From Sulfolobales archaeon (GTDB lineage: Archaea; Thermoproteota; Thermoprotei_A; Sulfolobales; AG1), in contig JAWAXC010000013.1 in NCBI GenBank assembly GCA_038897115.1, forward strand, positions 1 through 32,260: 32,260 bases of DNA. The letters run 5' to 3'. This document shows, in pieces, positions 5,812 through 31,243 of the stretch (its first letter is position 1; each line of letters starts with the position of its first letter). Below the pieces are notes generated by a model that searched no databases, was not told the origin of the DNA, and saw only the letters and a list, made by a program, of their open reading frames with translations. A program made the position numbers and the translations under genes.

Positions 5812-5841
5812 AGACTACATAATATCTATTGGTGAGACTTG

Positions 5842-12796: not shown

Positions 12797-13567
12797 TTGG
12801 TGGTGGTTACGGGGTTCAAGCTGAGGTTTCTAGATGCTAGGGTGTGGAGGTATGCTCTAGCTGCGGTTGCTGATCTAGTTGATATAGGTTCTGTTAGGGT
12901 TACTGGTGATGGTTTTATGATAAGGGCTATGGATCCTAGTCATGTTGCCCTTATAGAGTTCCATGTACCCTCAGCGGGCTTTGAGGTGTTCGATGTTGAG
13001 GGCGAGGCAGATATCCCCGTTAGTTTTGAGGATTTCTCCAAGATCTTGAAGAGGGCTAGTAAGAAGGATGAGCTTGCCCTCGAGTATGATGGTCAGAGGT
13101 TCTGGGTTGAGCTGATAGCGCCCCAGGGGGTTGGTAGGAGGTTCTCAATACCTATACTCAGTAGCTCAGCTGTTGAGAAGGTTCCGGAGCTCAAGATAGA
13201 CTTCCCGGTTAGATCTAGGATGTATCCCCAGGCATTCTACTCAGCATATAAGGTTTTCTCGGAGGTTGGCGAGGTTATAACTTTTAGCTCAACACCCGAG
13301 GGCCTGAGGATCTCGGGATCCTCTGAGATTGCTGAGGCAGAGATAATCCTAACCCTAGAGGGTGGGGGGCTTCTTGAGCACCAACACAGCGGTGGGGATG
13401 TTGAGAAGGCCTCCTATACCATAGATTATTTTGATAAGGTTGCTAAGGCGAGCTCGATAGCTGAGGAGACATCGATAGCATTTGGCACTGACAGGCCATG
13501 CGAGGTAGCCCTTTCAATGCCAAGGGGAGCAAGGCTTGTCATCTACGTCGCGCCGAGATCAGAGTAG
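12797..13567 (+). CDS. pcn: DNA polymerase sliding clamp (PCNA)
   Basis: A 256-residue clamp with the two-domain PCNA fold. FKLRFLDARVWRYALAAVADL opens domain 1, and GFMIRAMDPSHVALIEFHVP is the conserved SIRAMDPSHV-type strand. ISGSSEIAEAEIIL and SYTIDYFDKVAKAS mark domain 2, followed by a final LVIYVAPRSE. It rings DNA and tethers polymerase, ligase and nucleases. Crenarchaea usually encode several PCNA paralogues that form heterotrimers, so this may be one subunit. The start is TTG 12797 or one of the next two GTG codons; the conserved protein begins at about residue 7. It overlaps priS by 32 bases. Confidence 0.95.
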   Translation: MVVVTGFKLRFLDARVWRYALAAVADLVDIGSVRVTGDGFMIRAMDPSHVALIEFHVPSAGFEVFDVEGEADIPVSFEDFSKILKRASKKDELALEYDGQRFWVELIAPQGVGRRFSIPILSSSAVEKVPELKIDFPVRSRMYPQAFYSAYKVFSEVGEVITFSSTPEGLRISGSSEIAEAEIILTLEGGGLLEHQHSGGDVEKASYTIDYFDKVAKASSIAEETSIAFGTDRPCEVALSMPRGARLVIYVAPRSE

Positions 13568-14714
13568 CCAGTCCCTTTTAAAAAGCCTCTTCGCAGGCTA
13601 CTATTCAAAGGCTGAGCTAAGGCTTCCGGATGATATGGAGTTCAGGGAGTTCGCTCTACAGCCATTCGATTCACAGTCATATGTTAGGCATCTCTCATTT
13701 AGATCCCCTGAGGAGCTGAGGAGATATATATCCCAGAAGCCCCCACTCCATCTATACTACTCATCAGCCGTCTATCTACAGCCCTCGGCCCCATCAATGG
13801 ATGAGAAGGGTTGGAGAGGCTCTGATCTGTTATTCGATATAGACGCAGATCAGATCCCCGGATGCTCTGTACAGAAGCTATACTACTGCCCGGGCGAGGG
13901 CGAGCTGAGGAGAAAGCCTCCTGAGAGTCAATGCCCCTCTGGCGGTGGGGTTGAGGAGATAGAGATTATAGAGCCTGGATGTATAGAGCTTGCCAAGAGA
14001 AGCCTTGCAATGCTTATAGACATCCTGGTCGAGGAGATCGGGATACAGAGATCCTCCATCGAGGCCAGCTTCTCAGGTAACAGGGGGTTCCACATACACT
14101 GCTATGTAGATGAGAACCTAAGAAGCCTTGGGAGGGAGGAGAGGAGGATCTTGGTGGAATATATAAGGGGCTCTGGATTCTCTCCAGACGAGTATTACAA
14201 GGGTGGCGAGCGTAGGAAGAGAACCCCCATCCCTCCGAGAGCCGTTGACGGGGGTATACCATCGAGGATAGCTAGAACATATCTCAGGCTTGTGGGGGTA
14301 GGCGATAAAGAGGTTGTCTCGTATCTCACAGGTATCTCTAGGAGCATCAGTAGAAAGGTTATAGACTCTCTTAGCGATATCTGGAGGAAGGATCTATATG
14401 AGGTCTATATAGATGAAAAGGTTACAATGGATATATCGAGGCTAGTGAGAATACCATACTCTATAAACGGCAAGTCAGGCCTAATAGCATATCCAATAGA
14501 TATAACAAGGATTGAGGATTTCGAGCTAGGGCCCCACCTATCCCCATTCAACAACATGAAAGCCAGGATCAAAACAAAAGCTAAGATCCCCAGGATAAAC
14601 TTCTACGGCATAGAATTCGAGGCAAATACCCAGGCATACTACGAGGTGGAAGCGCCTCTAGCAATCTTCCTAGCCTTAAAAGGGGTTGCCGATCTAGTTA
14701 GCATAAAAAGATAG
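13536..14714 (+). CDS. priS: DNA primase small (catalytic) subunit PriS
   Basis: A 392-residue archaeo-eukaryotic primase that makes primers for replication with PriL (not in this window). The catalytic pair is in DLLFDIDADQ (Asp101, Asp103), and SGNRGFHIH at 180-188 is the nucleotide-binding motif. RLVRIPYSINGKSGL near 305-320 is the late conserved block. Cys110, Cys118 and Cys133 plus Cys149 could form the zinc site between the catalytic motifs. The only usable start that keeps the conserved N-terminus is TTG 13536, which lies inside the PCNA gene (32-nt overlap), so the two are probably translationally coupled. Confidence 0.95.
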   Translation: MSSTSRRDQSSQSLLKSLFAGYYSKAELRLPDDMEFREFALQPFDSQSYVRHLSFRSPEELRRYISQKPPLHLYYSSAVYLQPSAPSMDEKGWRGSDLLFDIDADQIPGCSVQKLYYCPGEGELRRKPPESQCPSGGGVEEIEIIEPGCIELAKRSLAMLIDILVEEIGIQRSSIEASFSGNRGFHIHCYVDENLRSLGREERRILVEYIRGSGFSPDEYYKGGERRKRTPIPPRAVDGGIPSRIARTYLRLVGVGDKEVVSYLTGISRSISRKVIDSLSDIWRKDLYEVYIDEKVTMDISRLVRIPYSINGKSGLIAYPIDITRIEDFELGPHLSPFNNMKARIKTKAKIPRINFYGIEFEANTQAYYEVEAPLAIFLALKGVADLVSIKR

Positions 14715-14848: not shown

Positions 14849-15334
14849 TTGCCCATTGAAGGTGATAAAAAGGCCATTATCCAGGGGTTAGACTCGATAG
14901 ATTTCGAGATCCTCAGAATGCTCCAGGAGAACGCAAGGATCTCCTATAACGAATTAGCATCCAAGCTTAAGATCCCAAAGCCAACAGCCTACTATAGAGT
15001 TAAAAAGCTAGAGTCTATGGGGCTTATCAAGTCCTACGGAGCAATCCTGGATCCCGAGAAACTAGGCTTTGAATACATAACAATAACACTTGTGAGAGGG
15101 AGATATGGAAAGGGGTATCACGAGAAGATAGGAGAGATGATCGCAAACCACCCATATGTACAATCAGTATACTTCGTCTTAGGAGACATAGACTTCGTGG
15201 TAATGGCTAAATTCCCATCAAGAGAGCGCTTCATGAAGTTCCTAGAAAGCATGATAAACTCACCAGAGATTGAGAGAACATCAACGCTCGTGGTAGTTAA
15301 GGTCATAAAAGAGAGTCTAAAGCTCCACATATAA
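14849..15334 (+). CDS. Lrp/AsnC-family transcription regulator
   Basis: A 161-residue protein with an N-terminal helix-turn-helix (LDSIDFEILRMLQENARISY, then NELASKLKIPKPTAYYRVKKL, residues about 14-55) and a C-terminal RAM ligand-binding domain (YITITLVRGRYG, SVYFVLGDIDFVVMAKF). Members bind amino acids and work as dimers or octamers. The start is TTG 14849; GGTG lies upstream of it. AATCT-ATATAC-AGATT, an inverted repeat around 14790-14805, overlaps a TATA-like run and might be an autoregulatory site. It is a single-gene unit after priS. Confidence 0.92.
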   Translation: MPIEGDKKAIIQGLDSIDFEILRMLQENARISYNELASKLKIPKPTAYYRVKKLESMGLIKSYGAILDPEKLGFEYITITLVRGRYGKGYHEKIGEMIANHPYVQSVYFVLGDIDFVVMAKFPSRERFMKFLESMINSPEIERTSTLVVVKVIKESLKLHI

Positions 15335-15627: not shown

Positions 15628-16851
15628 CTATGTGGAGAGGCTTCTTCTAAGTAAACCCATTGAATAGATCTTTGCAAGGTTTGTCAAGATCTCCTCGCTG
15701 TCTGGCTCTCCGAGAATCATGTTCATAATACCAGCCATATGATTGATCCCCATGAGTGATATGGCTAGACTTTCAGGTTCATATATGTTTACAAGCCCTT
15801 TGCTTCTATCCTTCTCTATTCTCTTAGCATATGCTCTGAGGAATGGGATATAGTATGCTTTAGCTATCTCTATATCTATGTATTCAGACTCTCTAACAAT
15901 TCTATATATATTGCTATTCTTCTCTATGAACCCTAGGAAACATGCTGTACCCATTATCTCGAGCTCGATAGGATCTCTGGCTTCCGAGGTGCATAGTGTT
16001 AGATACCTTCTTAGGGTTTTACCGATAAGAGCTACGAGATCCCTTAGCAGATCCTCTTTACTCTTATAAAACTTATAGAACATGCCAACGGAGTACCCGG
16101 TTTTCTCCATAATCTCATAGATCTTTGCCTCTCTGAAGGTCTTACTCGATATGGTATTGATCGTAGCTATTAATATATTCCACTTATTCTCGGAAATATT
16201 AGCAGATCTATATATCTCATACTCCTCTACCAAGCTTACAAGATCTTTAGAGGGTTTTATCTGCATAGTAGGGGGTATCTTATCTCCTCCCAGTCCCTTC
16301 AGTATTAGATCTCCAGCAACCTCTATGTCGATCAATATATTACCTGGAACACCGAATATCTGTCGAAAGAGATATATAAATTCAGCACTTCCTATAATCG
16401 TAAGCGTGGCAACTAGGGGGTTTATCGCTTCAATGAGGATCCTATCCTCATTCAATATGTTGCTAATCATTCTAAACAGATTTGCATAGTAAAGCCTAGC
16501 CAGATCCTCTCTGATAAACTCAAACTCTCTAAACACTCTATGAAAAGCAACTAGCTTCTCATCGTTCATAAGTGTTGAGAATATGTATATGAGACCTCTG
16601 ATTTTGCTGGGGAGGCCGAGCTGATGTCTAAATGAATCCTTAACTATATTCTCAATATGTTCTAATAGATATTCAGCGTAGTATTTAAGCATATCATCCT
16701 TAGATTTGAAATATGTATAGAACTGTGTAGTAGATATTCCCGCTAATCCTGAGATTTCTTTCAAAGATATATCACGGAAGCTTTTCTTAAGTGCTAATTT
16801 TGCGAAGGCTTCTATGATCTTCTGTCTATTATCTATACCATACCGAGACAT
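15628..16851 (-). CDS. Tandem (double) TetR-family regulator
   Basis: At 407 residues this is twice the usual TetR length and contains two complete TetR units. Unit 1 has its helix-turn-helix at 9-58 (DISLKEISGLAGISTTQFYT, YFKSKDDMLKYY) and a ligand domain to about 190. Unit 2 has its helix-turn-helix at 222-271 (FREAKIYEIMEKTGYSVGMF, FYKSKEDLLRDL) and a second ligand domain to the end. Both recognition helices look intact, so one chain could act as a pseudo-dimer. It is divergent from an acyl-CoA synthetase with only 68 bases between, and palindromic GTGANTCAC sites lie at the promoters of this locus. In Sulfolobus a TetR protein (FadR) controls an acyl-CoA gene cluster, so acyl-CoA is the likely inducer here by analogy. 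Confidence 0.9.
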   Translation of the reverse strand: MSRYGIDNRQKIIEAFAKLALKKSFRDISLKEISGLAGISTTQFYTYFKSKDDMLKYYAEYLLEHIENIVKDSFRHQLGLPSKIRGLIYIFSTLMNDEKLVAFHRVFREFEFIREDLARLYYANLFRMISNILNEDRILIEAINPLVATLTIIGSAEFIYLFRQIFGVPGNILIDIEVAGDLILKGLGGDKIPPTMQIKPSKDLVSLVEEYEIYRSANISENKWNILIATINTISSKTFREAKIYEIMEKTGYSVGMFYKFYKSKEDLLRDLVALIGKTLRRYLTLCTSEARDPIELEIMGTACFLGFIEKNSNIYRIVRESEYIDIEIAKAYYIPFLRAYAKRIEKDRSKGLVNIYEPESLAISLMGINHMAGIMNMILGEPDSEEILTNLAKIYSMGLLRRSLST

Positions 16852-16888: not shown

Positions 16889-16899
16889 AAAATTTATTT
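16889..16899 (+). promoter_or_regulatory. TATA element of the acyl-CoA synthetase/MaoC operon
   Basis: AAATTTATTT lies about 26 bases before the ATG at 16920, so transcription should start at or next to that ATG, giving a leaderless message. No ribosome site is visible, which agrees. Confidence 0.55.
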
Positions 16900-16919
16900 C
16901 TACCAATGAGTAATTTTGA

Positions 16920-18488
16920 ATGGTGAATCACCAGTTGAAAGGGTTGGATTTAAAGAGTATATTAGGCTTATCCTTAGACTTGGCTGAAAATGCTGCAAGG
17001 TTGGATCCTTATAAAATAGCGGTCATAGATTATTCCTGGGGGTCTAGAGAGGTATATACATATCTAGATATTGAGAAAGCATCGAGCAACATTGCCACTA
17101 TATTAGAGGATCTAGGAATCAGTAGGGGGGATCGTGTATCTGTTCTCTCATATAACAACATGGAATACCTATCGATTTATATGGCTACAATTAAGAAAGG
17201 GGCTATATTAGCTCCGCTAAGTTGGAGAGCCTCTGCTAAGGAGCTTGCTTTCATGATCGATGATGTTGAGCCTAAGGTGATCTTTTATCATAAGGATTTC
17301 GAAGATCTTTTAAGGAGATCATTTGAGATGAGTCTCCACAAGCCTGCAAGGGTAGATATAGAGGAGTTAAGGGGATTACATAGAGTAGAACTGAAAAGAA
17401 CATATCGAAAAGAGATCCTCTCTGAGGAGGATATAAGCATGCTCCTCTATACAGGCGGTACGACGGGGGGTCTCAAGGCTGCTATGATACCTTATAGACA
17501 GGTTCTATGGAATGGTATAAATACCGTGATCTCGTGGGGCCTAACTCCAAATGATATATCGCCTGTCTTCTTTCCCTTCTTCCATACCGGAGGTTGGCAT
17601 GTAATAACGATTCCTCTATACACGGTACGTGGAACCATTGTTATAGTCAAGAAGTTCGACCCTGACGAAGCAATCGAGATTATTGATAGAGAGAGATGCA
17701 CAGTAGTGATTGCAGTACCTACAATGTTCCATATGATGGCTAAATCACCTAAATTCAAGTATGCTAAGTTCAGCACTGTTAGATTCTTCAAAAGCGGTGG
17801 AGGTATGAGCCCCCTTAGCCTAGTTAAAATATATTGGGATAAAGGGGCTAGATACTTCCAAGGCTATGGGTTGACGGAAGCAGGTCCTAACCTTCTATAT
17901 ACACCTGAGAACACTATGAGGGAAAAGCCCATGAGTGTTGGAAAGCTAGGGCTCTTTGTCCAGCTTAGGGTGGTTAAGGATGATGGTTCGGAAGCTAAGC
18001 CAGGGGAAATAGGGGAGCTCCAGGTCAGGGGACCTATAGTCTTTTCAGGATATTGGAGAAGACCTAAGGAGACGATGGATGTTATAACTCCTGATGGGTG
18101 GGTTAGAACAGGAGATCTTTTTATTGTTGATGAAGATGGCTACTTCTATTTTATAGAGAGAAAGAAGTTTATGATAAAAACCGGAGGAGAAAATGTATAT
18201 CCATCCGAAGTTGAAGAGGCAATAAGAGGGCATCCAGGGGTTGAGGAGGTGGCTGTATTTGGTGTACCAGATCCCAAGTGGGTTGAAGCTGTAGCAGCAG
18301 TTATAAAGCCCAAGCCGGGTTACCAGATTTCCCCAGATGATATAAAGGCATATCTCAGGGATAAGATAGCCAGCTATAAGATCCCCAAGTACATCTGGAT
18401 CGTTGAAGAGGTGCCAAAAACAGCTATTGGGAAAATAGATTATTCTTATCTTAAAAAGAAATATTCAGAGATGATAGGTAATGCCTAG
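16920..18488 (+). CDS. Acyl-CoA synthetase (AMP-forming), first copy
   Basis: A 522-residue ANL-superfamily ligase that activates a carboxylic acid via an acyl-adenylate to its CoA thioester. The phosphate-binding loop is LLYTGGTTGGLKAAM near 175-189; it lacks the usual PKG tail (GLKAA replaces GVPKG). FFPFFHTGGWH, YFQGYGLTEAGPNLLYTPE, the hinge GYFYFIERKKFMIKTGGENV and the C-terminal catalytic lysine in PKTAIGKIDY are all present. The acid is unknown; medium-chain or aromatic acids are typical of this group. It overlaps the MaoC gene by 8 bases, forming a two-gene operon. Confidence 0.9.
   Translation: MVNHQLKGLDLKSILGLSLDLAENAARLDPYKIAVIDYSWGSREVYTYLDIEKASSNIATILEDLGISRGDRVSVLSYNNMEYLSIYMATIKKGAILAPLSWRASAKELAFMIDDVEPKVIFYHKDFEDLLRRSFEMSLHKPARVDIEELRGLHRVELKRTYRKEILSEEDISMLLYTGGTTGGLKAAMIPYRQVLWNGINTVISWGLTPNDISPVFFPFFHTGGWHVITIPLYTVRGTIVIVKKFDPDEAIEIIDRERCTVVIAVPTMFHMMAKSPKFKYAKFSTVRFFKSGGGMSPLSLVKIYWDKGARYFQGYGLTEAGPNLLYTPENTMREKPMSVGKLGLFVQLRVVKDDGSEAKPGEIGELQVRGPIVFSGYWRRPKETMDVITPDGWVRTGDLFIVDEDGYFYFIERKKFMIKTGGENVYPSEVEEAIRGHPGVEEVAVFGVPDPKWVEAVAAVIKPKPGYQISPDDIKAYLRDKIASYKIPKYIWIVEEVPKTAIGKIDYSYLKKKYSEMIGNA
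16921..16933. promoter_or_regulatory. Candidate TetR operator, perfect palindrome TGGTGAATCACCA
   Basis: A 13-nt perfect inverted repeat overlaps the start codon and predicted transcription start of the acyl-CoA synthetase gene. Its core GTGANTCAC is shared with the palindrome at 20637-20653. A protein bound here would block transcription initiation. Binding by the adjacent tandem TetR is inferred. Confidence 0.6.
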
Positions 18489-18939
18489 CCCGCTCTATTA
18501 TGAAGACTTCCAGATTGGTACAGTTTTTGAAACACCTGGTAGAACTATTACTGAAAGCGATATAATAAATTTTGCAGGTGTAAGCGGTGATTTCTATAGT
18601 CTTCATACAGACGAGATATTCGCATCTAAAACTATGTATAGAGGTAGAATAGCCCATGGACTATTAGTCATATCTATTGCAACTGGGCTATGGATGAGGC
18701 TAGGGATATTCGAGGGTAGCTTGGTAGCCCTATATGGTATAGATAGGCTTAGATTTATAAAACCCGTTAGAATAGGTGATACGATAAAGGTACGAATGAC
18801 CGTTTTAGAAAAAGTCGATAGAGGAGAATATGGTTTAATCACTATTAGGAATGAGATTCTAAACCAAGCAGGTGATTTAGTAGCCATATTCGATGCGAAG
18901 ATCTTAATAGCTAAGAAACCAGAGACACAGGGGAATTAA
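18481..18939 (+). CDS. MaoC-like (hotdog-fold) dehydratase
   Basis: A 152-residue hotdog protein of the MaoC dehydratase family (R-specific enoyl-CoA hydratase type). It opens YYEDFQIGTVFETPGRTITE, and the active-site segment FAGVSGDFYSLHTDEIFA (Asp and His conserved), then GRIAHGLLVISIATGL follow as in the family. It would add water to, or remove it from, an acyl-CoA double bond, matching the ligase encoded upstream. Its stop codon shares the tetranucleotide TTAA with the stop of the converging ligase gene. Confidence 0.88.
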   Translation: MPSPLYYEDFQIGTVFETPGRTITESDIINFAGVSGDFYSLHTDEIFASKTMYRGRIAHGLLVISIATGLWMRLGIFEGSLVALYGIDRLRFIKPVRIGDTIKVRMTVLEKVDRGEYGLITIRNEILNQAGDLVAIFDAKILIAKKPETQGN

Positions 18940-20513
18940 AGTTCATCCCTAGGCATGCCATGTCTTTCTATTAAAACTCTCTTTAAAGTTTTGCCAGCGG
19001 GGCTTTTGGGGATCTCGTCAACAACCGCTATGTATTTTGGTATCTTATATCTTGCGATCTTTCCAGCAAGGAATTGTATAATCTCCTCTTTAGAGATCTT
19101 ATGCATAGGCTTTAGCTTTATTATAAGCTTTGGAACCTCCCCCCATTTCTCATCGGGAACACCTATGACTGCGCAATCCTCCACAGAGGGGTGTTGCAGA
19201 ACCAGTTCTTCGATTTCCCTTGGATAGATCTGCTCACCCCCACTTTTTATTATATCTTTCTTCCTATCTATTACGTAGAAGTAGCCCTCTACATCGTAGA
19301 AGCCTATATCTCCTGTATATACACATCCATTCCTCAGTATAGAAGCTGTTTCTTCATCTCTTTTCCAATATCCAGAGAATATGAGTGGGCCGCATATGAC
19401 GATCTCACCATATTCATTAGGTCCTAGCTCCCTCCCATCATGACCGATAATTTTAATTACATTAAATGCAAAGGGTTTGCCAACGCTTTTCCACCTAGCC
19501 TTGATATCTTCTAAGGAAAGATCATATATCGGCATTGTTATATTGTTAGGCCCGCCCTCAGTGATTCCATAGCCCTGCGCCATTTTCACACCCTTAGACC
19601 AATATTCCTCCATGATTCTCTTGTCTATGGGTGCGCCCCCGCTGAGCATCCACTCTACATTATCGAAGCGGGTTTCTTTGAATCCATCGGCTTTCATTAT
19701 CATATAATATATTGTGGGAACCGCGAATATTACCATCGGCCCCTCTGATGTTTCAACTATTTCTAAAAAGATCTTGGGATCGAATTTTTTCACCAGGTAT
19801 AGAAGGCCTCCACGAACTAGAAGAGGTAATGTTAACAGATTCCATCCACCTGTGTGGAATAGAGGGAGAAGCACTATTGTTTTGTGATCCTCCTTTAGTC
19901 TCCAGGTAAGTATCTCCGATACTATGTTATAAAAGATCTGTCTATACGGTATCACAGCACCCTTGGGTACGCCAGTTGTACCGCCTGTAAAAAGGATCAT
20001 AGCTGGCTCCTCAAAATCTATATTGCGTCTACCCTTGATGCTCTGGGATCTTAGTGCATCATCGTAAGAATATTCCGGGCCTAGGGGTTCCGAATCAGTA
20101 ACTATTTTTATGATTTTAGAAGCTAGATCTGTTTCAACAGATCTCTCAACTAGCTCTCTAAAGATCGGCTCGTATATGACCGCCTTTGGCTCTACATCCC
20201 TTATAATCGCTTTTATTTCACCCGGTGTTAGCCTCCAATTGATAGGCACTAAAACGCTTCCTATCTTTCGAGAAGCTATAAATAATTCTATATATTCAAT
20301 CCTATTCATTAGGAGAGTCGCAATTTTATCACCGGCCTTAATAGATAAATCAGAGAGGTATTTTGCGACCCTTAAGGATCTTTGAATCAGATCATTATAA
20401 TTATATTTATTATTATTTTCATACTCGATAATTGCTGTTCTGGCTGAGTATAGTTCTCCTATAGTGTCAAAAATATCTATTGAATAACTTATCTTTACAG
20501 CGTTTTCAAGCAC
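18936..20513 (-). CDS. Acyl-CoA synthetase (AMP-forming), second copy
   Basis: A 525-residue ANL ligase with a canonical ILFTGGTTGVPKGAV loop at 173-187, LPLFHTGGWN, MAQGYGITEGGPNNITMPI, the hinge GYFYVIDRKKDIIKSGGEQI and C-terminal lysine in PKSPAGKTLKR. It is a diverged paralogue of the ligase at 16.9 kb and converges on that operon. The GTG at 20513 follows AGAGGGG by about 7 bases. ATTTATAAAT at 20557-20566 is the likely TATA box, placing the transcription start near 20537. Confidence 0.92.
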   Translation of the reverse strand: MLENAVKISYSIDIFDTIGELYSARTAIIEYENNNKYNYNDLIQRSLRVAKYLSDLSIKAGDKIATLLMNRIEYIELFIASRKIGSVLVPINWRLTPGEIKAIIRDVEPKAVIYEPIFRELVERSVETDLASKIIKIVTDSEPLGPEYSYDDALRSQSIKGRRNIDFEEPAMILFTGGTTGVPKGAVIPYRQIFYNIVSEILTWRLKEDHKTIVLLPLFHTGGWNLLTLPLLVRGGLLYLVKKFDPKIFLEIVETSEGPMVIFAVPTIYYMIMKADGFKETRFDNVEWMLSGGAPIDKRIMEEYWSKGVKMAQGYGITEGGPNNITMPIYDLSLEDIKARWKSVGKPFAFNVIKIIGHDGRELGPNEYGEIVICGPLIFSGYWKRDEETASILRNGCVYTGDIGFYDVEGYFYVIDRKKDIIKSGGEQIYPREIEELVLQHPSVEDCAVIGVPDEKWGEVPKLIIKLKPMHKISKEEIIQFLAGKIARYKIPKYIAVVDEIPKSPAGKTLKRVLIERHGMPRDEL

Positions 20514-20546
20514 TCGATTTCCCCTCTAGCCCTCTCAATTTGAAAA

Positions 20547-20555
20547 GTGAATCAG
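20547..20555. promoter_or_regulatory. Candidate TetR operator, imperfect copy GTGAATCAG
   Basis: AAAGTGAATCAGCATT keeps the TGANTCA core and the left arm of the palindromes at 16921 and 20637, but its right arm is degraded. It lies between the TATA box (20557-20566) and the predicted start of the minus-strand ligase gene, a position suited to repression. Confidence 0.4.
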
Positions 20556-20556
20556 C

Positions 20557-20566
20557 ATTTATAAAT
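20557..20566 (-). promoter_or_regulatory. TATA element of the second acyl-CoA synthetase
   Basis: ATTTATAAAT, followed on the minus strand by the imperfect operator and an AGAGGGG ribosome site. The predicted leader is about 25 nt. Confidence 0.5.
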
Positions 20567-20624
20567 CTCACGTTTTAAATGATATTATTAAGAGGCGCAT
20601 TAATAATTAGCAACGCAATATTAA

Positions 20625-20633
20625 TTTATAAGC
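20625..20633 (+). promoter_or_regulatory. TATA element of the condensing-enzyme/Liv operon
   Basis: TTTATAAGC, centred at about 20629, predicts a transcription start near 20655. That lies just before TTGGAGA and the ATG at 20665, which is why I prefer this ATG over the GTG at 20641. Confidence 0.6.
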
Positions 20634-20636
20634 TTG

Positions 20637-20653
20637 AATAGTGACTCACTATT
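20637..20653. promoter_or_regulatory. Candidate TetR operator, perfect palindrome AATAGTGACTCACTATT
   Basis: A 17-nt perfect inverted repeat (8-nt arms, one central base) fills the space between the TATA box and the predicted start of the seven-gene operon. The core GTGANTCAC is the same as at 16921-16933. The site is ideal for occluding the transcription start. Confidence 0.65.
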
Positions 20654-20664
20654 TGGAGACATTT

Positions 20665-21672
20665 ATGGTAGGTATTGTTTCCTATGGACTTTATCTTCCT
20701 GATCATGTAGTAACGAGTCATGATATATCAAAGATAAGTGGGATCCCTGTGGAAATTATTGAGGAGAAACAAGGTTGGAGGGTAAAGAGAATTAGTAGTC
20801 CGCATGAAATGCCTTCTGAGATGGCTATAAAAGCTGTATATAATGCGCTTGACTCTTCAAGAGCTGCCGGTATCAGTCCTAAGGATATAGATGCGATCAT
20901 CTATATAGGAAGTGAATTTAAGGACTATGGAGTTTGGATGATGTCTACACGGATTCAGGAGGCTTTGGGTCTTACTGATGTATTTGCATTTGATATAGTT
21001 GCTATGTGTGCAGGATATCCGGTGGGTCTCGCTATAGCTAAGAGAATAAGTGATCTTGCTGGTAACATAGTCTTAGTTGCATCCTCTAAGGAGTCTTATC
21101 TTGTTAACTATAGAGATCCTAATACAAGCTGGGTCTATGATTTCGCAGATGGTGCATCAGCTATTATAGTATCTAGAAGATATAATAGAAATGTAGTTCT
21201 CGAAAGCTCGTTCATAACTGATGGAAGGTTCTGGGGGGCTCTAGTAGTTAGATCCCTTGGAGCTGCAATATTTAGAGACAGCAAAAACCTAGAGACCTTA
21301 AAGAGACCTTTCTTCGAAAGCTTAATGGATAGAGATATTCTGAGAAAAGATCTTACTTTGACCAGTAAGAAAAACTTTGTGAAAGTTATAAAGGAGGCTG
21401 TTGAAAGAAGTGGGTATAGCGTGAGAGACATAGATCTACTAATCCTTAATCATATGAAGAGAAGCTTCCACAATGAGCTGATCAAAGAGCTAGGCCTAGA
21501 TCCTAGTAAAGCACCTTACCTAGAGGATTATGGGCATACACAGAGCAGCGATATGATAATAGGTCTTGATCTAGGTATTAAAAAAGGGCTTATTAAAGAG
21601 GGATCTATAATAGTACTAGCGTCTGGAGGCACAGGATTCATATGGGGTGCAACGGTGGTGAGGTGGGGCTAA
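20665..21672 (+). CDS. KAS III / HMG-CoA-synthase-like condensing enzyme
   Basis: A 335-residue thiolase-superfamily protein. VGIVSYGLYLPDHVVTSHDI is the usual start, the nucleophile is Cys115 in DIVAMCAGYPVGL, and a second catalytic His263 lies in LILNHMKRSFHNELIKELGL. The third triad position, Asn in FabH (GNTSAAS-like), is His291 here (YGHTQSSD). Such enzymes join or transfer acyl groups via a cysteine thioester. It lacks the neighbouring thiolase and DUF35 genes that accompany archaeal mevalonate HMG-CoA synthase, so a role in this catabolic locus is more likely. The ATG at 20665 has TTGGAGA upstream; GTG 20641 would lie inside the operator. It overlaps the hydrolase gene by one base. Confidence 0.82.
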   Translation: MVGIVSYGLYLPDHVVTSHDISKISGIPVEIIEEKQGWRVKRISSPHEMPSEMAIKAVYNALDSSRAAGISPKDIDAIIYIGSEFKDYGVWMMSTRIQEALGLTDVFAFDIVAMCAGYPVGLAIAKRISDLAGNIVLVASSKESYLVNYRDPNTSWVYDFADGASAIIVSRRYNRNVVLESSFITDGRFWGALVVRSLGAAIFRDSKNLETLKRPFFESLMDRDILRKDLTLTSKKNFVKVIKEAVERSGYSVRDIDLLILNHMKRSFHNELIKELGLDPSKAPYLEDYGHTQSSDMIIGLDLGIKKGLIKEGSIIVLASGGTGFIWGATVVRWG

Positions 21673-22562
21673 TGCCCTATGTAGTATCTGGAGATGCAAG
21701 GATCTATTATGAGGTAAAGGGCGAAGGACCTCCCTTAGTACTTGTGGAAGGTCTTGGATATGCTATGTGGATGTGGATTATGCAATTAGAAGATCTATCG
21801 AGAGAGTTGAAGCTGATAGTCTTTGATAACAGAGGCGTGGGAAGGTCAGACAAACCTCCATACCCATATACTATGGATCTATTCGCAGAGGATCTCAAGA
21901 TGGTGCTTGATGCAAACAATATAGAGAGAGCCCATATACTGGGGGTATCGATGGGAGGGATGATAGCCCAGCAATTCGCTATTAAATACCCCTCCAGGGT
22001 TAAATCTCTCATACTCGTAGCAACCCACCATGGAGGAGACATAGATCCGCCGCCTATGGAGACTATACAAGCTATGTTCGGACCTCCACCCAGCGGTATC
22101 AAGGATGAGCGGGAGCTATATAGATATAAGATGAAATATGCTTTCTCGAGGAAGTGGTATGACGAGAATCAAGATATTTTAAACCTTCTTATAGAGCACA
22201 GGATCTCAATACCCCAGCCTCCAGAGGCATATCTGAACCAAGCTAGTGCAGTATTTAATTTCAACCTATCTAACGAGGTCTCCAAGATCACCGTACCTAC
22301 CCTAATCGTACATGGAGATGAAGATATGGTTGTTCCAGTTGGTAATGCATATAAACTCCATAAAAAGATAGCCAGCTCAACACTTCTCATATTTAGAGGG
22401 GCTGGGCATCTAGTAAATATAGAGAGAGCATCAGAATTCAATAGAGCAGTAAAGATCTTCATAGATTTGGTGGAGACGGGAGAATATAGGGCTATAAGAG
22501 ATCCTATAATCATTGATCGTGAGATCAATTCTTTAAGAATCCTTTTGTCAGGAGGTGTATAG
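21672..22562 (+). CDS. Alpha/beta-hydrolase
   Basis: A 296-residue alpha/beta-hydrolase fold protein. The nucleophile elbow is GVSMGG with Ser93, the acid is in HGDEDMVVP (Asp218) and the base is His246 in GAGHLVNIE. LVFDNRGVGRSDKPPYPYTM is the typical strand 4 region. It could hydrolyse an ester, lactone or thioester; the substrate cannot be read from the sequence. The start overlaps the upstream stop as TAATG, and GGTGGGG precedes it. Confidence 0.9.
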   Translation: MPYVVSGDARIYYEVKGEGPPLVLVEGLGYAMWMWIMQLEDLSRELKLIVFDNRGVGRSDKPPYPYTMDLFAEDLKMVLDANNIERAHILGVSMGGMIAQQFAIKYPSRVKSLILVATHHGGDIDPPPMETIQAMFGPPPSGIKDERELYRYKMKYAFSRKWYDENQDILNLLIEHRISIPQPPEAYLNQASAVFNFNLSNEVSKITVPTLIVHGDEDMVVPVGNAYKLHKKIASSTLLIFRGAGHLVNIERASEFNRAVKIFIDLVETGEYRAIRDPIIIDREINSLRILLSGGV

Positions 22563-22563
22563 A

Positions 22564-24405
22564 ATGAAAAATAGCGTAAAGAAACATATGTATAAGATAT
22601 GGGAAAAAGAGAGATATATGAGAATAGCCATATATATGTCCCTAGCGTTGCTGTTCATATCAATAGCGAATCCATCGTTCGTGGCTGTTATCAATGCTCA
22701 AGGACCTAAACAGACTATAAAAATAGCATTCTTTCAGCCGAGAACAGCGCCTGCTCTGAACTTCTATGGAACCTGGGCTATACAAGGTTTCCATCTAGGG
22801 CTTGAATATGCCACGGGAGATAGAAAGCCTGAGAACCTTGCTCTCCTCATGGATCTCAAAGAAGCTAGCTACAACCTACCAGATGGTAGAAAGATAATAG
22901 TCAAAGTATTTGATACAAGAGGAAGCCCCGATGTAGCTGTAGCCAAAGCGAGGGAGGCGATAGAGGAGTGGAAAGCCGATATACTTGCTGGTGAGAGCTT
23001 TAGCAGTGTAGCTGTTGCTCTGGCATCAATAGCTAAGCAATATGGTAAACTCTACTTTGTAGTACCTGCTGCCGCGGCCTCTATAACGCAAGACCCAATC
23101 TTCAATAAATACGTCTTCAGAGTCGCGAGAAATGTTGAGCAGGACGCGCTTGCGATGGTTTACTATATGGTCGAGATCCAGGGGTATAGAAAATTTGCAT
23201 TTCTAGCGGCAGACTATGAATTCGGCTGGTCATTTATGGAATCTATACAGGCAGCCCTATCTAGATACACAGGCACCAGGATCGTGGCTCTTGAATGGGC
23301 GCCTCTAACTACTACAGATTTCAAGCCATATCTACTAAGGATAAACGCTTCAAAGCCTGATGTGATCGGAATTATATGGGCTGGCGATTTCAGCCTTATA
23401 ATAAGGGATATGGCAGCCCTGAACATCCTGGGCAGGATACCTCTTGCAAGCATAATGATCGACCTATATACTACTAATTATATAAACTTCTGTATACCTG
23501 GGATGCAGGGTTCTCTGGAAAACTTAACCGTAGTAACCTATGACGCGTATAGAGCGAGTCCAAGCCCTCTCTATAATATCCTCGAGAGGATGATGAAAGA
23601 GGAAAACATATATCCATATGACTTCCTCAGAGGGCATCAGTGTAAAGCGCTGGATAAGCTATCATCAGCCAGAGTACCAGATCTATGGCATCCACCGGCA
23701 TTTGCCACAGCTCAGTTTATAGTAGAGGCTATCAAAGCTGTCCCAGATCTGAATACTGATAGAATGATAGCGTTTCTTGAAGGACTTACACTTGAAACCC
23801 CTATGGGGACTACAACCATAAGGCCTGAGGATCACCAGGCTCTGAGACCATATTACATAGTTAAGATGGTGGTTGATAGCGATCCAGGCTCCGATACTTA
23901 TGGGCTAGTGATAGGCCGATATATTGAGACGATACCGATTCAAAAGATAATCCCGAGGATCCTTACAACATATAAGCCATACCCAAAGAATCTATCCATA
24001 AGCATAAGAGCTCCAATAGCTGGCACAGCACCTTTCACAGCAACCATCTCAGCCCTCATAGAAGGGGGTACTCCACCATATATCTGCGAATGGATCATAG
24101 GTAGGGCAACCCTTAATGGCACCAGCATTTCATATACATTCATAGAGCCTGGTATATACAATATAACTCTTAGATGCAGAGACTCCATAGGCCTAAAGGC
24201 GGAAGCCAACTCCCAGATAGCTATAGTAGGGCCAGGCGCGATTCAAACACCTACAATGACACAGCCTATAACAATTACCATAAGTACTGTAACCCCGGCC
24301 GGAGGTCTAGACACCACATTAATAACAGCTATAGCTATAGCATCTATAGCCATAGTAGTTGCAGCGATCTCCATAGCGATTCTCATGAGGAGGAAACTTA
24401 GATGA
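22564..24405 (+). CDS. Liv-type ABC substrate-binding protein with PKD stalk and C-terminal anchor
   Basis: A 613-residue protein. A signal segment (about 20-42, ending INAQG) precedes a Peripla_BP_6 ligand domain (IKIAFFQPRTAPALNFYG, DPIFNKYVFRVARNVEQDAL, FAFLAADYEFGWSFMESIQA). A PKD-like beta domain occupies about 475-556 (GTAPFTATISALIEGGTPPY, FIEPGIYNITLRCRDS), followed by a Thr-rich linker and a C-terminal membrane helix (about 585-606) ending in RRKLR. The PKD domain probably acts as a stalk that lifts the binding domain off the membrane. The ATG at 22564 follows GGAGGT by seven bases. The family binds branched-chain amino acids, amides and aromatic acids; the context favours a carboxylic acid. 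Confidence 0.9.
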   Translation: MKNSVKKHMYKIWEKERYMRIAIYMSLALLFISIANPSFVAVINAQGPKQTIKIAFFQPRTAPALNFYGTWAIQGFHLGLEYATGDRKPENLALLMDLKEASYNLPDGRKIIVKVFDTRGSPDVAVAKAREAIEEWKADILAGESFSSVAVALASIAKQYGKLYFVVPAAAASITQDPIFNKYVFRVARNVEQDALAMVYYMVEIQGYRKFAFLAADYEFGWSFMESIQAALSRYTGTRIVALEWAPLTTTDFKPYLLRINASKPDVIGIIWAGDFSLIIRDMAALNILGRIPLASIMIDLYTTNYINFCIPGMQGSLENLTVVTYDAYRASPSPLYNILERMMKEENIYPYDFLRGHQCKALDKLSSARVPDLWHPPAFATAQFIVEAIKAVPDLNTDRMIAFLEGLTLETPMGTTTIRPEDHQALRPYYIVKMVVDSDPGSDTYGLVIGRYIETIPIQKIIPRILTTYKPYPKNLSISIRAPIAGTAPFTATISALIEGGTPPYICEWIIGRATLNGTSISYTFIEPGIYNITLRCRDSIGLKAEANSQIAIVGPGAIQTPTMTQPITITISTVTPAGGLDTTLITAIAIASIAIVVAAISIAILMRRKLR

Positions 24406-25172
24406 ACGAGATATTGAGAACCGAAAACATCACTAAGAAATTCGGAGGCTTAATAGCTGTAAATAATGTTACTATATCGATTAAGAGGGGATCGATAACA
24501 GCGATAATAGGGCCGAATGGGGCTGGAAAAACAACCTTCCTTAACCTTATAAGCGGTGTTATTTACCCCGATACAGGTAGAATCTATTTCGAGGGGATCG
24601 ATATCACGAGGAAACCTCCTTATGAGAGGGCTAAGCTAGGGATATCGAGATCTTTTCAAAGTAACAGCGTGTTGCAAAGCCTAACTGTTTTTGATAATAT
24701 GAGGGCAAGCATCATTGGCGTTAAAAACTCCATGAGATTTTGGGATCTGATAAACATATTACAGAGAAAGAGCGACGGTGAGCTCTATAGGGAAATCCAC
24801 GAGATCATAGATAATATGGGGCTTAAAGGAAGGGAGTGGTTGTTAGCCCAACATTTAACCCAAGCCGAGCAGAGGGTACTCGATATAGCTATGGCCATTG
24901 CCGCGAAACCCAAACTATTGCTACTCGATGAACCCACATCTGGCCTTGCTGCCGAGGATGTACCCCGTATAATTAAGCTGATTAAAAGCCTTAAAGAAGC
25001 AACCTCTAACCTAACTATTATCTTGGTTGAGCATAAGCTCGAGGTTGTTAAAAGCCTAGCCGATAGGGTTATAGTTATGCATGAGGGTAGGATACTTGCC
25101 GATGGCTCATACAATGATGTGGTTAGCAATGGAGAGGTTATAGAAGCCTATCTAGGTGCCAGCGATGCTTAG
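24402..25172 (+). CDS. livG: Liv-type ABC ATPase, LivG
   Basis: A 256-residue ATPase: Walker A GPNGAGKTT at 37-45, SRSFQSNSVL Q-loop, Walker B LLLLDEPTSGL and VEHKLEVVKSLADRVIV switch region. The signature motif is LTQAEQR, where LivG proteins normally read LSYGEQR; the conserved Gly is Ala. ATGA overlaps the upstream stop, so the genes are coupled. Confidence 0.92.
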   Translation: MNEILRTENITKKFGGLIAVNNVTISIKRGSITAIIGPNGAGKTTFLNLISGVIYPDTGRIYFEGIDITRKPPYERAKLGISRSFQSNSVLQSLTVFDNMRASIIGVKNSMRFWDLINILQRKSDGELYREIHEIIDNMGLKGREWLLAQHLTQAEQRVLDIAMAIAAKPKLLLLDEPTSGLAAEDVPRIIKLIKSLKEATSNLTIILVEHKLEVVKSLADRVIVMHEGRILADGSYNDVVSNGEVIEAYLGASDA

Positions 25173-25893
25173 GGTAAGGGATCTAAGGGTATACATAGGT
25201 TCTCTGTACATATTACAAGGAATACACATTGATCTTAATAAAGGGGAAATACTTTTCCTCATAGGCAGGAACGGAGCTGGAAAAACAACACTTCTTAAAA
25301 CAATAATGGGCTTTATAAAGCCCTCTTCAGGAACGATAGAGCTTGATGGTATAGATATAACTGGAGAGCCTCCATATGTGAGGGCTAGGCTCGGTATCAG
25401 GTATGTTCCTGATACCAGAAGGCTTTTTACAAGCCTAAGTGTTGAAGAGAATCTCATGACATCTCTACTGGGACTTGGCCTTTCAAAGGAAAAAGCTATG
25501 GATAGGATCGAGTATGTGTACAGTTTATTTCCAGATCTGAAGAGGCTAAGAAAGCTCAGAGCCTCCCAGCTGAGTGGTGGTCAACAGCAGATGTTAAATC
25601 TAGGTAGGGCTATTGCCTCTCCCAATATAAAGATCTTATTGGTTGATGAGCCCATAGAAGGCTTAAGCCCTCTCTATGCCTCCAAGATATCCGATGTGCT
25701 CTCCAAACTATCGGAGGAAGGTATATCAATGATTATAGTTGAGACACGGCCTATGCTTATGAAGAGAATGAGTGGGAGATATGCTATAATTAATGGAGGT
25801 AGGATCGTTTCTGAAGGCTCTACAGAGGATCTTCACAGGGATCAGATATTAATTAACACATATCTAAACCTATCAGCTAACTCGGGTGTCTAG
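25165..25893 (+). CDS. livF: Liv-type ABC ATPase, LivF
   Basis: A 242-residue ATPase with GRNGAGKTT Walker A, the LivF-specific RYVPDTRRLFTSLSVEENL segment, a normal LSGGQQQ signature and LLVDEPIEGLSP Walker B. The expected ATPase partner of the LivG-type protein. The ATG at 25165 gives MLRVRDLRVYIGS, aligning with LivF starts; a GTG at 25156 is the alternative. It overlaps livG by 8 bases and livH by 8 bases. Confidence 0.92.
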   Translation: MLRVRDLRVYIGSLYILQGIHIDLNKGEILFLIGRNGAGKTTLLKTIMGFIKPSSGTIELDGIDITGEPPYVRARLGIRYVPDTRRLFTSLSVEENLMTSLLGLGLSKEKAMDRIEYVYSLFPDLKRLRKLRASQLSGGQQQMLNLGRAIASPNIKILLVDEPIEGLSPLYASKISDVLSKLSEEGISMIIVETRPMLMKRMSGRYAIINGGRIVSEGSTEDLHRDQILINTYLNLSANSGV

Positions 25894-26755
25894 GATCTCC
25901 TTAGAACTGCTCTTATCAGCCCTTATAGATGGTATAGCCCTTGGATTCATATTTCTAATGCTATCCCTCGGCCTCTCTATAATCTTCGGGCTTATGAGGA
26001 TCGTCAATTTCGCACATGGAAGCCTATTCACTCTAGGAGCCTACATAGGCTATGAAGTAGCATCGAGGACCAGTAACATGGCCTACGGCTTACTAGCATC
26101 CCTTACTTCGATAGGGCTGATAGGGCTCGCTATAGAGAGGTTCTTGCTAAAGATTAGGAGAGAACCCCTAGTTCAGGTGATAATAACGGTAGGGCTTATG
26201 ATTCTTCTAGATAGGTTGGCGTGGCTGAGATGGGGAGATATAACCTATATATGGTCTCCCCAATGGTTGGAAGGAACTATATATATAGGCCCGATCATAA
26301 TATACAGATATAGGCTATTTCTAATACTATTTGGTGCATTTCTTTCTATGGCTATGTATTATCTATTTACTAGAACCAAGTATGGTTTATTTGTAAGGGC
26401 AGGGATAGATGATAGAGAGATGATACAGGCTTTCGGGGTTAACATTGAGAGGATATTCACAATCACATTTGCAATAGGCTCTATGCTAGCAGGAACGGCA
26501 GGATTCCTGTTAGTCCCTTGGCAGGGTGTCTATCCATTAATAGGCACTAACTACCTTCTATACGCATTCGCTATAATAGTGATCGGTGGTATTGGAAGTA
26601 TAGAGGGAACGATCTTCTCATCAATACTGGTTGGGATAGTTCAGCAGTTATGTGCCTATTATGCTCCCTACCTAAGCGAGGTCTCTATATTCGCTGTTAT
26701 GCTTTCTATACTGCTTGTGAGGCCTAGGGGTATTCTAGGTAAGGTGGTTATATGA
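25886..26755 (+). CDS. livH: Liv-type ABC permease, LivH
   Basis: A 289-residue permease of the BPD_transp_2 family. LDGIALGFIFLMLSLGLSII-like start, FGLMRIVNFAHGSLFTLGAY and GLFVRAGIDDREMIQAFGVN (the cytoplasmic coupling loop) are diagnostic. About eight hydrophobic segments can be seen. The GTG start lies within the end of livF; the stop overlaps livM as ATGA. Confidence 0.92.
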   Translation: MSRISLELLLSALIDGIALGFIFLMLSLGLSIIFGLMRIVNFAHGSLFTLGAYIGYEVASRTSNMAYGLLASLTSIGLIGLAIERFLLKIRREPLVQVIITVGLMILLDRLAWLRWGDITYIWSPQWLEGTIYIGPIIIYRYRLFLILFGAFLSMAMYYLFTRTKYGLFVRAGIDDREMIQAFGVNIERIFTITFAIGSMLAGTAGFLLVPWQGVYPLIGTNYLLYAFAIIVIGGIGSIEGTIFSSILVGIVQQLCAYYAPYLSEVSIFAVMLSILLVRPRGILGKVVI

Positions 26756-27990
26756 GGTATCCTGGATCTCTTTTACTCTTCATCGTCTTGTTGCTACTTC
26801 CAGTCATCTTGGAGGGGATCGGTGTTGCTAGGCTTATACCTATTTTAACCTATGCATATATAATGTCGATCTATGCTCTATCGTTCTCGCTACTTCTAGG
26901 ATATTTAGGACTTCTGAACTTCGGACATGCAATTTTCTTCGGTCTAGGAGCCTATGTCACTACTTATCAGCTAATATGGCTGGGAATCCCCTATTTCCCG
27001 GCTATCATAGTCTCCGCATCCATAGGATCTCTAGTAGGTGTTGCTATAGCCTTTATAGCTAAAAAAGCCTTTAGAGGCGTCCCATTTGCATTTATCACAC
27101 TGACACTACTCCTCATAGTATATTTCCTCTATAGAAGGAGGGAGCTTAGAGCTATAAGCGGTTCTGAGCAGGGGTTAATTATACAGATCCCGGAGGTTTT
27201 TACATCAACCCTGATCCCTATTATATCGATCTTAGCGTTCTCTATAATGCTGATAAATACTTTTATCCTCGGATCAGCTGGTCGTCTCCGTTTAGGAGAT
27301 CTACATAGGTTTTCACCTAGAAGAGGGAGGGTTTTTCTACAGAGCTCGGTATTACTGGTATGTTTAATATGCATAATATATGCCCTAGCACTTGTCTCCA
27401 TCATAACATCTATAGCTTCTAGGCCAGGGCCCTTCAGGATTTCTATAAACATATATATTGCAGCTCTGACGATCCTATATCTATCATATATATTATTAAA
27501 AGAATTATCATATACTCCACTTACTCTAGCCTGGATAGCTGTGAGAGATAACGAGGTAAGAGCCGAGACTATGGGCTATAACTCATTTGCGATGAAGACA
27601 ATAGCTTTATCTATATCTGGGGCGTTAGGGGCGATTTCTGGAAGTCTATACATACTATATTCACAGGGTGTAAACCCAGATACAACTTTTAGCCCTCTAA
27701 TCTCTGTGTATGGGCTTATATATAGCATAATAGGCGGGTTATACACTATGGAAGGCCCAATAATAGGGGCTATCCTAGTTACTATTGTTGAAAGATATCT
27801 CTCAGACTATCTAGGAGGCTGGAACATGGTTGTCACAGGTATTCTATTTATAGTAATTATGATGCTCTTACCGATGGGCATAACACCCTATTTACAGGCA
27901 GCCTGGAACAAGATCTATATAACGATGCGCCTCCTTACTAAGATAGGTATTGCAAAGGCTATTGAGAAGAACGAAAAGGATTCGACATAA
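26752..27990 (+). CDS. livM: Liv-type ABC permease, LivM, with enlarged middle region
   Basis: A 412-residue permease, longer than the usual 300-330. YALSFSLLLGYLGLLNFGHA, the coupling segment AVRDNEVRAETMGYNSFAMK and GSLYILYSQGVNPDTTFSPL identify LivM. The extra length lies in the middle (about 165-250): a charged stretch GRLRLGDLHRFSPRRGRVF followed by additional hydrophobic helices. The C-terminus ends in a charged tail. It closes the operon. Confidence 0.9.
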   Translation: MRYPGSLLLFIVLLLLPVILEGIGVARLIPILTYAYIMSIYALSFSLLLGYLGLLNFGHAIFFGLGAYVTTYQLIWLGIPYFPAIIVSASIGSLVGVAIAFIAKKAFRGVPFAFITLTLLLIVYFLYRRRELRAISGSEQGLIIQIPEVFTSTLIPIISILAFSIMLINTFILGSAGRLRLGDLHRFSPRRGRVFLQSSVLLVCLICIIYALALVSIITSIASRPGPFRISINIYIAALTILYLSYILLKELSYTPLTLAWIAVRDNEVRAETMGYNSFAMKTIALSISGALGAISGSLYILYSQGVNPDTTFSPLISVYGLIYSIIGGLYTMEGPIIGAILVTIVERYLSDYLGGWNMVVTGILFIVIMMLLPMGITPYLQAAWNKIYITMRLLTKIGIAKAIEKNEKDST

Positions 27991-29501: not shown

Positions 29502-29560
29502 CTCGGCGGGCCAACCCCTATCTGCTATAAAACCCTATCTCTATGCCCGCAGGGGCCGAG
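29502..29560 (+). promoter_or_regulatory. Stem that could mask the tnpB start codon
   Basis: CTCGG and CGGGC (29502-29511) can pair with GCCCG (29545-29549) and CCGAG (29556-29560), leaving a 6-nt bulge. The right side begins at the last base of the ATG. TATAAAA at 29526-29532 lies between, so whether the left arm is transcribed depends on which promoter is used (GCTTATAAGC at 29468-29477 would include it). Confidence 0.3.
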
Positions 29561-30753
29561 CGTGATATCTTGATCAGAGCTGTGATGCTGAGACTACTGC
29601 CAGATGAGGAGGCTGAGGAGAGGCTGAGGAAACTATGTGATATCTCCTCGAAGCTCTGGAACGAGATTAACTATGCTAGGAGGAGGCAGTTCTTCAAAGA
29701 AAAGAAAGTAGATCTTAAGCAAACATATAAGGAGTTCTATGAGAGGTATAAGAAGTTAATCGGGTCTGCAACAACACAGCAGATCTTGAATAAAAATAAT
29801 GAGGCTTGGAGATCGTTCTTCTCGTCTCTGAAGGCTAAGAAGGAGAGAAGGCTACCACCATTCATAAAGAAAGTTAATCCGCCTGGATATAGGAAGAGGG
29901 GTGGGAGGAGAACACTATGGACAGTCCTCAGAAATGATCAATATAACATTGATGGCGAGTACATAGTTATCAATGGCTTGGGAGCCATAGGATCTATAAG
30001 GGTCAAGTACTCAGGCAGAATACATATTTCTGGGAGGCAGGGTAGGGCTGAGATACACTATGACCATGATGATAAGAAATGGTATATGTATGTATCATAT
30101 GAGGTTGATAAAAAGGTGATCAGAAATAGTAGCTTTAGGATCCCTCTCAAGCCTCTTGGAGATAAAGAGGCTGGCATAGATATAGGTGTTAACAATTTAT
30201 TGGCTGTATATGTTGATGATGGATCTGCATTGCTTGTCAATGGGAGGCCTTTGAAGGCTATTAGCTTCTACTGGAGGGATAAGATATCAGAGTATCAAAG
30301 CACATTGAATAGATATGGTTTTAAAACATCTAAGAGGCTTAGGAGGATGTATAAGAAGTGGAGGAGGCAGATAAAGAGCTATATTGACTGGGCTGTGAGG
30401 AACACGTTGGAATGGCTATATAGTGAAGGTGTTAAGAGGATATATGTTGGTCATCCGAAATACGCTGCACAGGAGCCTGGTATGGGTTCTAAGGTTAACT
30501 TTGAGATTGTCCATATATGGAGCTATGGATATCTACTGAGAAGATTGAGAGATGTTGCAGAGGAATATGGTATAGAGGTTGAGCATGTTGATGAGGAAAA
30601 CACATCCAGAACATGCCCAATATGCAGAACTATAGAGAGTCATGAGAGAATATCGAGAGGGCTGTTCAAATGCTATAAGCATAGCATCGTATTCAATGCA
30701 GATCTTGTGGGGGCATTCAATATCTTGGCTAAAAAGAAGGCCATAACCCCGAG

Positions 30754-31243
<490 letters not shown>

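Follow-up and report, generated by a model that had tools for sequence, protein, structure and literature searches.

A tandem TetR-family regulator encoded in an acyl-acid gene cluster of a Sulfolobales archaeon very probably reads three predicted operators in the promoters of that cluster as one local regulon. The window analysed here is the whole stretch of 32,260 nucleotides in which the cluster lies. The regulator gene (15628–16851, minus strand) encodes 407 amino acids and, as a preliminary description of this DNA had said, contains two TetR_N domains, here called D1 (residues ~1–200) and D2 (~201–407). That description had also proposed that a palindrome shared by three promoters marks one regulon read by the neighbouring TetR. 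At the level of sequence the proposal is supported by conservation of the motif, by the finding of no TetR-family protein in the genome besides the regulator, by the regulator's FadRSa-like C-terminal half and by the likeness of the motif to FadR sites. A contig scan for TetRs returned distant TetRs only, and of the regulator genes in this neighbourhood the tandem TetR alone recurs with the cluster.

The genes next to the regulator are those of acyl metabolism and transport. On the plus strand, an AMP-binding acyl-CoA ligase (ligase 1, 16920–18488; PF00501/PF13193, long-chain-fatty-acid--CoA ligase-like below the cut-off) is followed by a MaoC-like (R)-enoyl-CoA hydratase (18481–18939; PF01575). 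A second AMP-binding acyl-CoA ligase lies on the minus strand (ligase 2, 18936–20513; PF00501/PF13193). The plus strand then carries a KAS III-like condensing enzyme (20665–21672; NF005308/PRK06840, 342.8 bits against a cut-off of 315), an alpha/beta hydrolase (21642–22562; PF00561), a Liv-type substrate-binding protein (22555–24405; PF13458), two Liv-type ABC ATPases (24402–25893; LivG 24402–25172 and LivF 25156–25893; PF00005) and two Liv-type permeases (25886–27990; LivH 25886–26755 and LivM 26752–27990; PF02653). Because two ligases, a MaoC hydratase, a KAS III-like enzyme, a hydrolase and a Liv-type transporter occur together, the cluster suggests that an organic acid, fatty or aromatic, is taken up, activated and converted. 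The KAS III-like enzyme and the alpha/beta hydrolase accompany an acyl-CoA ligase in all five related loci, that of genome G038 included. Elsewhere in the window, an IS605 OrfB/TnpB-like protein (OrfB_IS605, Cas12f1-like TNB domain; 29543–30850) lies downstream of the Liv operon, and a PCNA-like sliding clamp gene overlaps that of the DNA primase small subunit (12797–14714) beside an Lrp-type regulator.

A check of the sequence found the three reported motif copies where the preliminary description had placed them: the perfect palindromes TGGTGAATCACCA (16921–16933) and AATAGTGACTCACTATT (20637–20653, at the condensing-enzyme promoter), and the half-conserved copy GTGAATCAG (20547–20555, at the ligase 2 promoter). 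When aligned, the three sites yield a longer asymmetric element, TTGAATRGTGANTCAC, that is TTGAA..GTGANTCA, whose outer TTGAA half stands on one side only at all three. Judged from this alignment, the element is an asymmetric FadR-type site of ~16 bp, of which the 9-bp palindrome forms no more than the centre.

Each of the three predicted operators, all written on the plus strand, lies close to a TATA-like box recognized by sequence. O1 (TTGAATGGTGAATCACCA, 16916–16933) is in the divergent gap between ligase 1 and tetR, ~30 bp downstream of AAAATTTATT (16889–16898, plus strand), which may serve ligase 1 and/or, on the other strand, tetR; it overlaps the presumed leaderless start of ligase 1. 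O2 (TTGAAAAGTGAATCAGCA, 20540–20557), in which one core half is degenerate, directly adjoins TTTATAAAT (20558–20566, minus strand), the TATA-like box of ligase 2. O3 (TTGAATAGTGACTCACTATT, 20634–20653) is just downstream of TTTATAAG (20625–20632, plus strand), the TATA-like box of the condensing-enzyme/Liv operon. The GTG at 20641, listed as the start of the condensing enzyme, falls inside the operator, and the ATG at 20665, after GGAG, is more likely. The placement of the sites relative to TATA boxes and starts is thus broadly as first described for all three, and a repressor bound at such positions in an archaeon would stand in the way of the polymerase.

The exact core GTGANTCAC occurs twice in the window (16923 and 20641) and three times in the whole 2.44-Mb genome, in which the reversed control pattern occurs six times. 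The two copies in the window mark the two divergent promoter gaps of the cluster, and the third (C3:42499) falls within an ORF unrelated to it; there is no scatter of the motif across promoters. Taking six copies as the expectation per genome, the probability that both promoter gaps (236 bp) contain one is ~2e-7. With one mismatch allowed, the 9-mer shows no excess in the window (6 copies versus 6.4 by chance), so the 9-mer alone cannot carry the copy at 20547. This third site is present as described but not significant as a 9-mer; it is the extended element that supports it. Exact TTGAANNGTGANTCA, the extended form, occurs three times in the whole genome, at 16916, 20540 and 20634 only, a count that is descriptive because the pattern was fitted to these same sites. 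When two mismatches are allowed the excess is modest (46+56 matches versus 41+32 for the control). Since the pattern was read off the window sites, its independent test is in other genomes.

Outside the window the bare 9-mer discriminates poorly. As a scan with one mismatch it performed at chance level in window and genomes alike and was dropped, and exact 9-mers in other genomes are about at or below the control level; discrimination therefore comes from promoter position and the extended motif. Among 15 exact copies outside the cluster that were inspected for further regulon members, 10 lie inside ORFs and none has a TTGAAT flank. Two extended sites with one mismatch were likewise rejected as promoter sites, C47:884 being inside an ORF and C60:1934 at the end of one. 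Since most exact copies beyond the clusters fall within ORFs, the regulon looks local, like that of FadRSa. A second-tier PWM match, TTGGTGAGACTTGGTGAGTCTC at window positions 5828–5852, in which GTGAG is repeated, lies close to where an ORF at 5839 begins and just downstream of the gene for a peptide-type solute-binding protein.

In the three other genomes that encode the tandem regulator, G001, G107 and G111, the motif is found again at orthologous promoters, so that the footprint spans two families. Neither of the outcomes that could have refuted the proposal by computation, scatter of the motif through the genome and its absence upstream of orthologues, was seen. Their regulators are 54%, 45% and 44% identical, respectively, to the window protein. 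The congener G001 has the same cluster, with Liv and without MaoC, and in it exact GTGANTCAC occupies the same two promoter gaps and a degenerate copy, GTGGTTCAT, keeps the position of the ligase 2 site; the TATA-like box of ligase 1 is kept as AAAATTTAT. In G107 and G111, which belong to another family, the full-length tandem regulator stands beside ligase 1, MaoC, condensing enzyme and hydrolase. O1 is conserved in all three genomes, and the condensing-enzyme promoter site reads GTGAGTCAC in G001 and GTGATTCAC in G107. Besides this site, the Liv operon has one of its own upstream of livK in G111 (L097, ATGATTCAC) and in G107 (L098, GTGATTTAC).

A PWM trained on the three window sites only places the cluster promoters near the top in each relative: at ranks 1 and 2 in G001, where the third match overlaps the second (p ~6e-5), at ranks 1, 2 and 4 in 33 kb of G111 (p ~5e-6) and at ranks 1, 3 and 4 in 16 kb of G107 (p ~2e-5). 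Outside the window genome the outer TTGAAT half-site gives 41 matches versus 23.7 in shuffled flanks, a count that none of 20,000 shuffles reached. Four of the six sites in the two congeners keep an intact core palindrome, as does the condensing-enzyme promoter of G107. Two features weigh against the tandem TetR as reader: G001 has a weak outer half-site, and both members of the genus have a degenerate site at ligase 2.

What kind of protein is the regulator? Residues 221–376 match FadRSa (6el2/6en8, E 5.6e-18), and local scores against FadRSa reach z ~27 for D2 and ~16 for D1. In a tree D2 falls near the FadR clade, with weak deep branches, and D1 has no firm place. Full-length tandem forms are present in 4 of the 229 genomes of the class. 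In the four tandem proteins all D1 units group in a single clade and all D2 units in another, so the fusion was most likely a single event that preceded their split. An AlphaFold2 model from seven sequences, which replaced a poor two-sequence model (pLDDT 55), is confident for the whole chain (pLDDT 87.9, pTM 0.88); its best whole-chain match in the PDB is Mce3R, followed by FadRSa chains. The recognition helices of D1 and D2 differ. The equivalent of FadRSa Gly48 is kept in D2 (G256) in all four tandem proteins and is missing from D1 in all four. As this glycine is essential in FadRSa, the DNA contact of D1 must differ, which weighs against the tandem TetR as reader of the sites; the two heads probably read different half-sites, given the glycine in D2 and its loss in D1. 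Among the ligand residues of FadRSa, Arg73 (R281) and Phe97 (F305) are invariant, and proline occupies the position of Arg86 in D2; this last difference also weighs against the tandem TetR as reader.

The motif is tied to this protein through FadR. FadRSa (Saci_1107) of S. acidocaldarius is an acyl-CoA-responsive TetR-family repressor of known structure (PDB 6EL2, 6EN8) in which Gly48 is essential and contacts G/C pairs 11 positions apart (PMC6449355). The window motif resembles a putative FadR promoter site of several Sulfolobaceae. In these (genus-level group g29) the fadR promoter has TTGACTCAGTARTCAA or close variants, and its reverse, TTGAYTACTGAGTCAA, agrees with TTGAATRGTGANTCAC at most positions. 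A 16-bp semi-palindromic feature with G/C contacts 11 bp apart is present in TTGAATRGTGANTCAC and weaker in G001; in TTGAATAGTGANTCAC, G3 and C14 are 11 apart, the spacing reported for FadRSa. The FadR and tandem-site PWMs match each other's sites reciprocally. With a 12-site PWM built from the sites of the tandem clade, the site in the fadR gene's own promoter came first in 5 of 8 Sulfolobaceae loci (~7,140 positions), most of which are from one genus and thus not independent, and 4th, 7th and 33rd in the other three. Conversely, the Sulfolobaceae FadR PWM places the window sites among its top ten, not uniquely.

Some of these comparisons weigh against the tandem TetR as reader of the sites. 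Rank 33 is that of the S. acidocaldarius operator itself, which was inferred as a near-identical repeat common to the Saci_1106 and fadR promoters in a genome assigned by a FadR sequence identical to PDB entry 6el2. In G219 and G220, which are distant members of the class, no FadR-type site was found at the fadR promoter. FadRSa, moreover, represses mostly from sites >130 bp upstream and not from core promoters (PMC6449355).

A single-domain counterpart of the window cluster is found in G038 (L049:410–6383), with an MFS transporter in place of Liv. Here the genes for transporter, hydrolase, ligase and condensing enzyme form an operon that ends with a single-domain FadR, 48% identical to FadRSa, and MaoC is divergent from this operon. 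The operon promoter has GTGACTCAG, the best FadR-PWM match in 12 kb; AATAGGTGACTCAGGTG, just below the TATA box, is this best match of the locus.

Together these observations suggest a mechanism. The tandem TetR would be a doubled and fused version of FadR, the acyl-CoA-responsive repressor of archaea, and its two helix-turn-helix units would read the asymmetric 16-bp site TTGAATRGTGANTCAC through half-site contacts 11 bp apart. The core GTGANTCAC is mirror-symmetric at O1 and O3, where a second molecule could bind facing the other way at a distance of 7 bp. From its place just below the TATA box or over the start site, the repressor would block RNA polymerase at ligase 1–MaoC (and probably tetR), at ligase 2 and at the condensing-enzyme/hydrolase/Liv operon. 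By analogy with FadRSa, the inducer that frees it from the DNA is likely to be an acyl-CoA made by the ligases. The cluster is thus most likely one in which genes for uptake, CoA ligation and condensation are under acyl-CoA-relieved repression. What the sequences show directly is the motif, its rarity in the genome, its conservation, the synteny and the homology; binding, repression, stoichiometry and ligand we infer, the last two with less certainty.

How the protein sits on its sites is the harder question. The halves of GTGANTCAC are only ~5 bp apart; judged by the geometry of FadRSa, a single TetR protein would lack the space to place both its heads on them alone. For this reason the palindrome is best read as the place where two FadR-type 16-bp sites, facing opposite ways and shifted by 7 bp, overlap; two overlapping PWM matches with the same offset are present in the inferred S. 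acidocaldarius fadR operator. We tentatively suggest that an archaeal FadR was duplicated and fused, that its two DNA-reading heads later became specialised, and that the Gly-bearing C-terminal heads of two molecules may lie on GTGANTCAC and the altered N-terminal heads on the flanking TTGAA. A possible variant, held equally tentatively, has one tandem pseudo-dimer per asymmetric 16-mer, as in Mce3R, with the palindromic core incidental or partly symmetric. The one-sided TTGAA half and the unlike recognition helices speak for a single molecule per site, and Mce3R, with two non-identical helix-turn-helix units, binds a non-palindromic site (PMC11667970). The intact core palindromes at the congener sites and in G107, however, exceed the needs of an asymmetric reader. 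It is rather unlikely that the regulator activates, or that it answers to something other than an aliphatic acyl-CoA, such as an aromatic acyl-CoA or a free acid. Liv-type transporters and ligases do not fix the substrate class, the nearest solved relatives of ligase 1 include fatty-acyl and feruloyl-CoA synthetase, and Arg86 of FadRSa is not conserved; yet steric repression fits sites that lie over the start or between it and the TATA box, and FadRSa is a repressor released by acyl-CoA.

Readings that leave the tandem TetR out altogether fare worse. An Lrp/AsnC gene lies close by (14849–15334), and O1–O3 could in principle be operators of this or of an unlinked factor, with the tandem TetR controlling something else. 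We regard this as very improbable: the Lrp and HTH genes of the window have no homologue in the stretches searched around the G001, G107 and G111 clusters, where tandem TetR and motif are always together, and in species with a single-domain FadR the FadR promoter site is similar to the motif. That short palindromes merely happen to look alike is hardly credible. The one-mismatch 9-mer count in the window does equal its expectation, but the exact sites in both gaps and the recurrence of the motif at orthologous promoters in three more genomes stand against chance, and it is the phylogenetic footprint that rules it out.

Both a FadR-type repressor and the double-TetR architecture of Mce3R are already known, and by analogy the tandem regulator would work like FadRSa, to which it is partly homologous. 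It shares with FadRSa the homologous C-terminal half (target-normalised TM 0.87), a 16-bp semi-palindromic site with contacts 11 bp apart and a local regulon inside an acyl-metabolism cluster; FadRSa occupies four genomic sites, all within its own cluster (PMC6449355). It differs in that FadRSa is a single-domain homodimer and here two TetR units are fused in one chain. The core, TTGANTCA for FadRSa, is GTGANTCAC in the window, the window sites sit on core promoters, and a Liv transporter and a KAS III-like enzyme stand in place of the lipase and beta-oxidation set.

Mce3R of M. tuberculosis is a double-TetR repressor with two non-identical helix-turn-helix units and a non-palindromic site (PDB 9B7Y; PMC11667970). 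Like the tandem regulator, it has two complete TetR units with non-identical helix-turn-helices in one ~400-residue chain, it regulates lipid-related genes and adjoins its target operon, and it is the top whole-chain fold match (426 columns, E 1.5e-7). The structural match is nevertheless distant (13% identity, TM ~0.5, 8.2 Å RMSD). In the Mce3R type the two units pair within the chain through an asymmetric four-helix bundle; the tandem protein may do so too, the confident model with Mce3R as its top match speaking for this and the low TM and high RMSD against. Its own operator is 25 bp and non-palindromic, whereas the window sites combine a one-sided outer half-site with a palindromic core, and its lineage is bacterial, whereas the archaeal fusion has a FadR-like C-terminal half. 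The archaeal fusion is probably independent of the Mce3R-type double TetR. A further comparison is the QacR-type dimer of dimers, in which two overlapping inverted repeats are bound from opposite faces; this is the mode proposed here for the tandem protein, and it has been invoked for FadRSa (PMC6449355).

No description of an archaeal double TetR was found in the literature searched, the scope of which fell short of most subscription journals, and the same literature yielded no archaeal acyl-CoA-responsive TetR besides FadRSa. Archaeal regulons with a defined operator are few. The present case would add a prediction of operator, target set and regulator for a second architecture, one that is conserved in two families. 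If the tandem protein does bind as a dimer of covalent pseudo-dimers on overlapping sites, it would be a DNA-binding arrangement for which we found no description. A fused FadR beside single-domain relatives on similar DNA would offer a clean case for the evolution of operator symmetry as a homodimer becomes a single chain.
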